DNA from: Mariannaea sp. PMI_226
Lineage: Eukaryota; Ascomycota; Sordariomycetes; Hypocreales; Nectriaceae
DNA length: 64,000 nt
Direction of reading: 5' to 3'
NCBI GenBank assembly: GCA_024336345.1
Contig: JANFOG010000003.1
Location: forward strand, 2,610,501-2,674,500
Shown here: positions 28-22,745 of the stretch, in pieces
Layout of the letters: every line of letters starts with the position of its first letter
Position numbering within the stretch: position 1 is the stretch's first letter
The notes under the pieces: generated by a model
What the model saw: only the letters and a program-made list of their open reading frames with translations
The model's database searches: none
What the model was told of the DNA's origin: nothing
Made by a program: the position numbers and the translations under genes

Positions 28-34
28 AAAAAAA
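28..34 (-). terminator. Pol III terminator of tRNA-Phe
   Basis: Seven consecutive T on the minus strand, 9 nt after the discriminator base. A second T-rich stretch follows at 20-14. This is the standard Pol III stop signal and supports a live tRNA gene. Confidence 0.75.
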
Positions 35-43
35 TATGTTGTA

Positions 44-173
44 TGCGGTTTATGTGGATCGAACACATGACCTTCAGATCTTCAGTCTGACGCTCTCTGT
101 CAGTGAAGGTTAGTTTTTTGGTTCAACTGAGGGATTTTGTATTTGCAACATACCCCAACTGAGCTAAACCCGC
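44..173 (-). tRNA. tRNA-Phe (GAA) with a 57-bp insert in the D loop
   Basis: Decodes UUC/UUU. On the minus strand the 5' acceptor half begins at 173 and the discriminator A is at 44. D stem GCTC (164-161) pairs with GAGC (95-92). The anticodon stem TCAGA/TCTGA (90-86, 78-74) encloses anticodon GAA (83-81). The variable loop has 5 nt. T stem ATGTG/CACAT encloses loop TTCGATC (63-57). The acceptor stem has one mismatch (G5 with A68). The A box (166-155, TAGCTCAGTTGG) and B box (65-55) are both intact. Bases 153-97 interrupt the D loop between G20 and A21; without them the body is exactly 73 nt. No intron lies at the canonical 37/38 site, although yeast and Neurospora tRNA-Phe genes have one there. 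The 7-T run at 34-28 suits Pol III termination. The tRNA identity is secure; whether the gene is functional is inference. Confidence 0.93.
97..153 (-). other. Spliceosomal-type intron inside tRNA-Phe
   Basis: The 57-bp insert starts GTATGT (153-148), carries CTAAC (113-109) and ends CTGACAG (103-97). The branch A (110) is 13 nt from the last base. Length, donor, branch site and acceptor match the mRNA introns of this same window, for example 11964-12018 and 14195-14253. It does not resemble a tRNA-endonuclease intron: it is not in the anticodon loop and I see no bulge-helix-bulge geometry. Its removal restores the A14-G20|A21 loop of standard tRNA-Phe. That it is spliced is inference. Confidence 0.75.
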
Positions 174-19647: not shown

Positions 19648-20770
19648 GTAATTTTTCGCGACACGACCTTTTCGAACTTGAAGGAACACTTGAGTTGCGA
19701 GCAATGGACTTGCTGTTGTTGTTGCTGCTGTTGTTGTTATGAACATGAAGGCACAGGCGGCCAAATATGGGAGTTGTGAGGGTCTTCCGTTCTTATTTTC
19801 TGATGCACGAGGCGCACCACTGCTGGGCGGACTATGGAACACACTATGATTTCACGTAGAACTGGGTAAGCAGAATGGGCAACAGGGCGTAGACATATTG
19901 CTCATTTCCCCCCTCTTTGTTTTTTTTTCCTTTTCTTTTCATTAGGTATTATGGAGTGTTTGAAATGACCAGGTTATGACAATGAAAGACAGTGTATTCA
20001 TGCATGGAAGAAATGATCTCGTGACCTCACCGTGCAAGAATAAATCTGATGAGATGAGAGTTACCAAAACGGAAGCTAGGGTATAACTTAGTTAATAAAC
20101 CTTACTTTCTCTACAGTCGGTAATGAGTGTGCGTGTAGGCTAATAATTGAAACGAAACGGGAAAAACGACGGTTAAGATGGTACTTGACCGTGTCCGGCA
20201 TTAACCTTTTCGTCACTCATGCACGGTTCTTGTTCCTGTGGAGTTGCATGAACTCATTTAATTGTAATAGCCCGTAAAAGGAGTTATATGATAGATAGGA
20301 TGGGCGAGATGCAGGTACGTACAGGTGAAATGTGGTCGGTACATCGATACCAGACTATACTTTGATTGAAGTATCCATTAGCACAAAAGTCGGGGGAGGA
20401 GGGGCGGTCAGGTTTGAACATTTTCCCACCATTGTTCTGGGGTGGGTTGATTATTGGTGGTGGTGGTGGTGGTGGTGCTGATGCTGATGCTGATAGGGGT
20501 GCATGCGTGCCATATTAGACTATAATCTTAGGTAGTGCTTCGTAAGGCTGGCTTGCTGGGAGTTGACTGCTGGCAACTAATTGTGTGCTGGAGGTAGTTG
20601 CAAGCCTCCAGCGCCAAAGGGCGGGCCACTCGACCCAACTTGGCAAGACGTCACCGTGACCACCTCTCAACTGAAACAGAGGCTATGAAACGAACTTGGC
20701 CTCTGTTTTTCGCCTTCGGTCGCATTCAACTTTCGCGCTTGAGCTTCGTTCCTTTCCTCCACTCGGCGTC
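19648..20770. other. Spacer between USP and HET genes
   Basis: No gene supported. Contains a (TGG)n then (TGATGC)n microsatellite around 20456-20493. The HET start at 20771 is the first ATG in the frame; the frame is open for 75 bp above it but without another ATG. Confidence 0.5.
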
Positions 20771-22745
20771 ATGAGACTACTCAACACTAGGACGCTGGAG
20801 CTGGAGACTGTCGGGAACAATCCGCGGAGCTATGCCATCTTGTCGCATACATGGGGTCAGGATGAGCTGCTCTATGAAGACGTCCGAAATCCGGACAGGA
20901 TGCGCGACCTGCAACAGAAGAACACCGCGGGATACAAAAAGGTGGCCAAAACCTGCGAGACGGCGCTGAGCCAGGGCTTCTCCTATGTCTGGGTCGACAC
21001 CTGTTGCATCGACAAATCCAGCAGCGCAGAACTTTCCGAGGCCCTCAATTCCATGTTCCGCTGGTACAAGGATGCCGCCATCTGCTACGCCCACTTGTCC
21101 GACGTGACACTTCATCCAGACCGCGGAGCTGAGGGATTCGACACAAGTCGGTGGTTTTCGAGAGGGTGGACATTGCAGGAGCTGTTGGCGCCCGACGACG
21201 TCGAGTTTTTCAGTACTGAATGGGTCTCGCTAGGGACGCGGGGTAACTTGTCTCAACGCATCAGCCGTATCACTGGCATCGGCGATGCCTTGCTCAGGGG
21301 ACGGGACTCGTCGCGACGGAGACCACGCAATGTAGCCCAGTTACTTTGCCAGGAGAACGTTGCTACCAGAATGGCATGGGCGGCTCATAGAGAGACGACC
21401 CTGGTAGAGGACATGGCTTACTCCATGATGGGCTTGTTCGGAGTCAACATGCCCATACTCTACGGTGAGGGTGACACGGCCTTCCTCCGACTGCAGGAAG
21501 AAATTCTTAAATTATCCCAAGACCAGTCAATATTTGTATGGAGGAGGCCAATGGACCCGAATGGGCCACACTCGGTGCAACGGATGCACTTCTTTGCCGA
21601 CTCCCCAAAGCACTTCAACCTACGGACGTTCGGGGGACAGGAAAACCCGGCGCGTTTTGGTCTGAAGATGACGGGTCAGGGCGTGGAGTTGGGAGTCTGG
21701 AAATGTCCTTGTCGGATAACCTACTCGACCCGAAATGGGAGGATCGAGAAGGGGGAGGAAGACCGCCAGTGGCTTGCCGTGCTCGACTGCAGCTTGTCTT
21801 CGGACACGCTGGCAAGAGCAGCAATCCTCCTCGAAGCCAGTGCTAGTGGAGGTATTGCGTTTAGGAGACTGCATCCCAATGTTCTAATGATTATTGAGCC
21901 CAAACGATCCGGCTTCCTCATGGTTGATGGTGACATGCCTGGACATCGCAACAGTGAGTACAAACGGATCAAACGGATGATGAGGGGAGATGACGAAGAA
22001 TGATCAAAAGTAAAATGAGTGCTAATACCACAGGGCGCACATAGAGATTGAGTCAGTTGAATATGATCCAGGTGATCTTAAAAAGGAGACAATCACTCTG
22101 GAGAGTGCGCCGGATGGGCCAGTGGCTCGAGGAGTTTTCCCCTTTAAGCTCACGCTCCCATCCAAGAATTCAATGATTCAACAGCGGGCGGCATACACAG
22201 GGTCACGGAGATATATCAGTTCAGAGCATATCGCCTTCATGTCGATAGATAACCCCATCTACGGGGTGGTCTTCCTCAGCGCCGGCCGCGGCCGCGAGTT
22301 CCTTGTTTGGTGGGGCCTAGTTGAGCTCGGCGGCAAGATGTCACTGATGCATGACGACCGCGGTGCCCCGCGGCTTTGGGACAACAGCATTCCCGTGTGC
22401 TTCGTGCAGTCATGGACAAACCTGACGGGAAACCCTGAATTCCACACTGACCTGGCTGACCAATTAGCCGTGGACGTACTCAATGAGGAGATCCGCCTGC
22501 CGTGGCTTGCAGGATCGGCACCAAAGGTGGTGGATGTCGAAGATGGGCTGGATTTGGAGCCACCATCACCAGCTGGGCGGCCAATGATTTCGAGTGCGGT
22601 GATAGGGCTATTCATGCAAAGGGCACGGCCCGTAGCAGACACCAAGTTTGCGGGAGTAAAAGTGAGGGCGACGATGAAGAGGGCCGAGTTCCTGGGAAGG
22701 CTGGCGTGCGAGATGGAGGTGGAGGTTGTGGAAAACGATAAGTAG
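20771..22745 (+). CDS. HET-domain protein (heterokaryon-incompatibility type)
   Basis: Exon 1 20771-21953, intron 21954-22044 (GTGAGT, branch GCTAAT, TAG), exon 2 22045-22745; 627 aa. The N-terminal 240 residues are a classic HET domain: MRLLNTRTLELE, YAILSHTWG, a YVWVDTCCIDK block, LNSMFRWYKDAAICYAHLSDV, SRWFSRGWTLQELLAP, and the later ATRMAWAAHRETTLVEDMAYSMMGLFGVNMPILYGEG. HET domains trigger non-self recognition and cell death in fungi after hyphal fusion. The C-terminal half has no WD40, ankyrin or NACHT part that I can see. Another acceptor at 22033 would fit less well: it would bring in an in-frame stop. Without splicing the frame ends at 22003. No obvious partner gene lies beside it. 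Confidence 0.88.

Follow-up and report, generated by a model that had tools for sequence, protein, structure and literature searches.

Spliceosomal-type introns in the tRNA-Phe genes and one tRNA-Cys gene of the fungus Mariannaea sp. PMI_226

The split tRNA-Phe gene and its genomic copies

The window, a stretch of 64,000 nucleotides of Mariannaea sp. PMI_226, carries near its start a tRNA-Phe(GAA) gene that is interrupted within the D loop. A preliminary description had reported a tRNA-Phe(GAA) body split between G20 and A21 by 57 bp that begin with GTATGT, contain ACTAAC and end with CAG; reading of both strands confirms this arrangement and places the gene on the minus strand. The A and B boxes and the T7 terminator that it listed were located at 167-155, 64-56 and 34-28, and the joined exons form the perfect 73-nt tRNA-Phe(GAA) body that it had expected from excision. 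The assignment of the two boxes, which we take to be the A and B boxes of this gene, follows consensus sequences. The features are:

154..173, minus strand: tRNA-Phe(GAA) exon 1 (20 nt), tRNA positions 1-20 (GCGGGTTTAGCTCAGTTGGG), identical in 8/8 genomic copies
155..167, minus strand: presumed A box (TTAGCTCAGTTGG), intact, upstream of the intron
97..153, minus strand: spliceosomal-type intron of 57 nt (GTATGT...ACTAAC...CAG) at the G20/A21 junction
148..153, minus strand: 5' splice site GTATGT
109..113, minus strand: branch site CTAAC, with the branch A at 110 followed by 13 nt of intron
97..99, minus strand: 3' splice site CAG
44..96, minus strand: tRNA-Phe exon 2 (53 nt), tRNA positions 21-73, anticodon GAA, without a 37/38 intron, identical in 8/8 copies
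56..64, minus strand: presumed B box (GTTCGATCC), intact, downstream of the intron
28..34, minus strand: Pol III-type terminator, T7, beginning at the 10th nt past the tRNA 3' end

The last base of exon 1 and that of the insert are both G, so the insert can be read in two equivalent registers, one of which is GT-AG. TTTT is absent within the gene. ARAGORN found no tRNA in the window, either as offered or when set to accept introns of up to 200 nt, and Rfam found none at its gathering cut-offs; permissive Rfam settings gave a partial tRNA (the 3' part) at window 107-51 with 22.8 bits. The silence of ARAGORN at this locus even when introns are allowed indicates that tRNA finders can miss such genes.

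The window's own assembly (42.2 Mb in 25 contigs) was searched for related genes, and by the search tool's own statement the genome-wide tRNA-Phe counts are lower bounds. The split gene has eight full-length genomic matches, of which contig C25 carries four, C19 two, and C6 and C20 one each. The eight genes share one identical 73-nt body, interrupted at one common site; this takes up the call of the preliminary description for a comparison of every tRNA-Phe gene of the genome. Their inserts measure 55-60 nt, and a run of T5-T7 begins at the 9th-12th nt past the tRNA 3' end of each. Uninterrupted tRNA-Phe genes supplying the cell had been named as part of a finding that would speak against the spliceosomal reading; they were sought in the 42.2-Mb assembly with an anticodon-arm pattern and with the joined body, and within these lower-bound searches none was found. 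The anticodon-arm pattern, with up to three mismatches, matched 16 places genome-wide (3 for the backward control); eight are exact and correspond to the split tRNA-Phe genes, and the other eight carry 2-3 mismatches. The joined body matched the same eight genes over positions 20-73, together with one 15-nt stretch of exon 1 in one of them.

Split tRNA-Cys and U6 genes

A second interrupted tRNA gene, encoding tRNA-Cys(GCA), lies at C4:349248-349379 (L026:5249-5380) and contains a 60-nt insert of the form GTTAGT...ACTAAC...CAG. Set against unsplit tRNA-Cys genes, the insert follows GGTAGAG, within the D-stem 3' strand. ARAGORN reports an intron in this gene and places it at 33; the Rfam alignment of the gene, at 46 bits, shows a D-arm insertion of 61 nt. 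With the whole split gene as query, four tRNA-Cys genes were found, one split and three unsplit (two on C22, one on C1), and no other genomic match to the insert was obtained. One of the C22 paralogues is identical in body to the joined exons. This visible empty site, the position unlike that in tRNA-Phe and the single filled copy together suggest that the tRNA-Cys intron is a gain separate from that of tRNA-Phe, and probably a recent one.

The only U6 snRNA match above the cut-off, on C2, is also split (47 of 2720 Rfam candidates were scored in this search). A 56-nt insert (L021:1473-1528) lies just before ACAGAGA: the locus reads ...GAAACGAT, followed by the insert, GTTAGT...GCTAAC...CAG, in which 12 nt follow the branch A, and continues with ACAGAGA.... 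Once the insert is taken out, the gene measures 103 nt from CGACC through the T7 run. Rfam aligns the 3' part well, and the 5' end of its alignment runs into the insert. The U6 intron also holds AGTTCGAATCC, presumably a B-box-like element, and GATGTTAG, which spans the 5' junction of the intron, is complementary to CTAACATC close to the intron's 3' end. The split U6 makes another Pol III gene in this fungus that needs the spliceosome. Tani and Ohshima (1989 and 1991) and Canzler and colleagues (2016) are said to have described mRNA-type introns in fungal U6 snRNA genes. According to the available text of PMC10484740, the U6 intron of fission yeast is thought to have arisen by reverse splicing.

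Pattern searches for further split tRNAs recovered the genes described above. An A box followed by GTAWGT occurs at 12 places (7 for the backward-pattern control), seven of them being tRNA-Phe genes; the eighth tRNA-Phe gene, with GTAAGA, falls outside this pattern, and the remaining five places were rejected by eye because no tRNA body was seen. Patterns running from a branch site to a B box gave 32 places for ACTAAC (control 112), leading to six tRNA genes (five Phe, one Cys), 34 for TCTAAC (control 107), leading to three tRNA-Phe genes, and 31 for GCTAAC (control 67), leading to no tRNA gene. As these raw counts lie below their controls, tRNA assignment rests on the reading of each match. 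In the ACTAAC list, a script for the anticodon arm passed 9 of the 32 places, matches longer than 80 letters being tested in shortened form, and three of the nine were rejected by eye for their spacing; the TCTAAC and GCTAAC lists were judged by eye alone. A broader CTAAC pattern matched 181 places (control 477) and, among the matches listed, pointed to the tRNA-Cys gene. In the Rfam search for tRNAs, 63 of 1269 candidates were scored. The A box plus GTAWGT and CTAAC-to-B-box patterns may therefore have missed further split tRNA genes. Scans of the viral_contigs and genome_contigs collections for relatives gave no match; these collections are not fungal and have little bearing on fungi. By eye, several tRNA-Glu(CTC)-like copies clustered on C2 (for example C2:594352-607858) contain a variable insert resembling a short 37/38 intron.

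Splice signals, conservation and alternative origins of the inserts

The inserts carry the signals of U2-type introns. Among the eight tRNA-Phe 5' splice sites, GTATGT occurs four times, GTAAGT three times and GTAAGA once, and both tRNA-Cys and U6 have GTTAGT; all begin with GT and match GTRWGT or come close to it, the C6 tRNA-Phe copy (GTAAGA) and the GTTAGT sites each being one mismatch away. CTAAC is kept in all eight tRNA-Phe inserts with 12-13 nt following the branch A, and the same holds for tRNA-Cys and U6 (10/10), in agreement with a CTRAY branch site lying 6-36 nt from the acceptor. All the 3' splice sites are YAG, with CAG in seven tRNA-Phe genes, tRNA-Cys and U6, and TAG in one tRNA-Phe gene. 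Removal of the insert restores a 73-nt body in tRNA-Phe and the sequence of the C22 paralogue in tRNA-Cys; the tRNA-Phe genes found in this genome include no empty-site copy. The eight tRNA-Phe genes and the split tRNA-Cys gene all retain the features of functional nuclear tRNA genes, namely an intact body, A and B boxes, a T run and no internal T4.

Two groups can be told apart among the tRNA-Phe inserts, group A (n = 5) with ACTAAC and group B (n = 3) with TCTAAC, the latter not conforming to RCTRAY; the middles of the two groups show hardly any relation to each other. Between the 5' site and the branch site, likeness exceeds that of shuffles (200 for each pair) in 12 of 13 pairs within groups, whereas 13 of 15 between-group pairs show no such excess (p >= 0.05); the window copy takes part in each of the two exceptions, with p of 0.01 and 0.04. 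The contrast between within-group likeness and shuffle-level middles between groups indicates that the splice signals outlast the rest of the insert. Identical exons joined to inserts that have diverged except at three splice signals form the pattern that selection for splicing would be expected to produce.

Some features of the inserts stand beside this pattern. The 12 nt past the branch site at window 97-108 (CTTCACTGACAG) are identical in all five group-A introns and can pair with exon 2, and this shared tail may reflect gene conversion or a further constraint. When the intron tail was paired with exon 2, the energy lay below that of shuffles in group A (0.018 for the local stretch, 0.058 for the whole exon) and not in group B or tRNA-Cys; no such pairing is claimed here. 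Four tRNA-Phe genes, one of them opposite in strand to the other three, lie within 1.4 kb at C25:944566-945953, where introns of both groups are present.

A soft comparison with the tRNA inserts comes from candidate mRNA introns that a reading-frame rule selected in the same genome. A first cut contained 34 candidates, and a second gave 127 and 24 unambiguous introns from 144 and 34 sites, with reversed-sequence controls of 22 and 3. In the 127-intron set, which admits any GT start and is noisy (control 22 vs 144 sites), the commonest distance after the branch A is 13 nt and the median 15. In a 93-intron set, also noisy (control 33), both the commonest distance and the median are 13 nt, the median being partly built in because the rule admitted only 8-22 nt after the branch A. 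TTTT, which must be avoided within a Pol III transcript, is absent from all nine split tRNA genes and from the U6 intron, while T5-T7 stands behind each of the nine; in the same genome, it is present in 11 of 35 mRNA-like introns of 50-70 nt. The TTTT-free inserts agree with Pol III transcription of the split genes, though this would be weak evidence on its own.

Explanations that do not involve the spliceosome have to account for the same features. The inserts are not canonical introns of the tRNA splicing endonuclease (TSEN), which interrupt position 37/38, for the site is 20/21 in each of the eight tRNA-Phe genes found and, in tRNA-Cys, falls in the D stem on its 3' strand. Group I and group II self-splicing introns, whose catalytic cores occupy hundreds of nucleotides, do not fit insert lengths of 55-60 nt. 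The endonuclease might instead recognise a bulge-helix-bulge (BHB) motif and remove the insert as an atypical intron, a route used for tRNAs of Cyanidioschyzon merolae and for some nucleomorph and archaeal ones. The endonuclease pathway seems to be active here, as ARAGORN places introns at 37-39 in 5 of 26 genes of the fetched stretches (His, Met, Pro, Thr and Ala) and the tRNA-Glu copies look, by eye, similarly interrupted at 37/38; BHB-processed tRNAs with D-loop introns and the 20/21 junction are likewise documented in the available text of PMC3978253, PMC4090602 and PMC9602550. The fold itself speaks against this route. With strict bulges (a 4-bp helix between two 3-nt bulges), all nine genes form only 0-2 of the 4 pairs. 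Loose bulge placement yields the 4-bp central helix in 4 of 9 genes, but 23-40% of the shuffled inserts of those four also reach 4/4 pairs, and the other five genes are equalled or beaten by 94-99% of shuffles. A BHB intron would also give no account of why GTAWG, CTAAC with its 12-13 nt, and YAG are kept amid divergence, and we consider it improbable.

Still less probable is that the split copies are dead relics, with tRNA-Phe made from another gene that is unassembled or diverged. The assembly, in 25 contigs, is possibly incomplete and the tRNA-Phe counts are lower bounds, but dead copies would not keep eight identical bodies with T runs behind each; moreover, the tRNA-Phe body has no other match, and the non-exact anticodon-arm places (8 of the 16) differ at 2-3 positions. 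The inserts could also belong to overlapping Pol II transcripts, or be mobile insertions, and merely look like introns, since intron-like signals occur by chance in long DNA. The full signal set, GT[AT][AT]G[TA], CTAAC with 12-13 nt after the branch A, and YAG (a pattern chosen after the inserts were seen), was found in 3 of 2,627,988 segments of 55, 56, 57, 58 or 60 nt on both strands of 264 kb, comprising the window and twenty 10-kb stretches; two of the three are the window insert and the tRNA-Cys insert. Against such a coincidence, the inserts also lie exactly between tRNA halves in nine genes, the tRNA-Cys gene minus its insert has the sequence of an unsplit paralogue, and the whole-gene query gave no second genomic match to the tRNA-Cys insert. 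We regard this last explanation as the most remote of the three.

Proposed splicing route and relation to known introns

The insert is very probably (roughly 0.9) a U2-type spliceosomal intron in a nuclear Pol III tRNA gene, obligatory for cytosolic tRNA-Phe, with a separate, similar insertion in one tRNA-Cys gene. The preliminary description had put forward such an intron, in a tRNA gene without a 37/38 intron, and the sequence evidence favours it: signals kept and middles diverged in 8/8 tRNA-Phe genes, empty-site paralogues of tRNA-Cys, a split U6 and no BHB support. Taking the gene anatomy, the copies found, the conservation pattern and the empty sites as observed, we infer Pol III transcription, splicing, a lariat and spliceosome dependence of tRNA-Phe.

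Under this spliceosomal reading, Pol III would transcribe pre-tRNA-Phe from the intact A and B boxes and end at the T run. The 5' site, GUAUGU or GUAAGU, would be bound by U1 and then U6; U2 would recognise CUAAC, and YAG would then be used. The 55-60 nt of the D loop would leave as a lariat, with G20 joined to A21, giving a normal 73-nt tRNA whose body could then fold and undergo the usual processing. As 8/8 tRNA-Phe genes are split, cytosolic tRNA-Phe would depend wholly on the spliceosome. The substrates of spliceosomes are mainly capped Pol II transcripts, so that a short Pol III transcript would be an unusual substrate for efficient splicing, with U6 as a precedent. It appears likely, with somewhat less confidence than the identity of the intron itself, that the whole supply of cytosolic tRNA-Phe has moved from the tRNA endonuclease to the spliceosome and that a tRNA-Cys intron was gained as well, making Pol III transcripts, with U6 split too, regular spliceosome substrates in this lineage and tying Phe decoding to splicing capacity. 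The supply of Phe-tRNA might in this way be coupled to splicing activity. Reverse splicing can be offered as a guess at the origin of the introns.

Known systems share parts of this arrangement. Like the inserts described here, fungal U6 introns are spliceosomal introns in a short, structured Pol III RNA gene, and one is present in this genome. However, U6 sits in the active site of the spliceosome and so has a ready route to reverse splicing, whereas a tRNA is no splicing component and has its own intron-removal enzyme. Introns of fungal U3 snoRNA, as described in the available text of PMC5832005, have GTRWGT, RCTRAC and YAG signals, an average branch distance of 15 nt and a branch-site-to-acceptor range of 6-36 nt; almost all of them lie in the 5' half of this structured non-coding RNA, and in some species split and unsplit paralogues are mixed, as for tRNA-Cys here. 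They differ in residing in another RNA, which is not a translation adaptor, and in averaging 92 nt as opposed to 55-60 nt.

Canonical 37/38 introns, removed by TSEN and tRNA ligase, also interrupt tRNA genes and must be excised, and they are present in other tRNAs of this genome; the introns in question differ in position (20/21 in tRNA-Phe, D-stem 3' strand in tRNA-Cys), in their branch and splice signals, and in having no support for a BHB. The BHB introns of Cyanidioschyzon merolae lie in the D arm of nuclear tRNA genes, and the 20/21 junction recurs in its permuted genes; the available text of PMC3978253 describes them as BHB substrates and makes no mention of spliceosomal signals.

Nuclear tRNA introns are usually taught to belong to the endonuclease, and spliceosomal introns to mRNAs and a few snRNA and snoRNA genes. 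According to a survey of 2017 (available text of PMC5832005), no small structured RNAs other than U3 and U6 were known at that time to be often interrupted by introns. The preliminary description knew of no spliceosomal intron in a tRNA, and a search of open-access PubMed Central likewise gave no report of one in a nuclear tRNA gene in the text of the matches listed. The new element would thus be the extension to tRNA of spliceosomal introns in small non-coding RNA genes, which are already known in U3 and U6. If the spliceosomal reading is correct, an essential tRNA whose every gene is spliceosome-dependent would break the division between endonuclease and spliceosome, the spliceosome would be able to act efficiently on short Pol III transcripts, and translation would depend directly on splicing. 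The empty and filled tRNA-Cys sites within one genome would then provide a system in which intron gain can be counted.

Elsewhere in the window, an ORF at 20675-22003 on the plus strand contains a HET (heterokaryon incompatibility) domain. The window also encodes a FAD oxidoreductase, the single protein by which the genome was assigned to the Nectriaceae; its best named relatives are from Thelonectria olida (85%), a member of that family, Ilyonectria robusta and Dactylonectria macrodidyma (83% each), followed by Fusarium vanettenii (74%).
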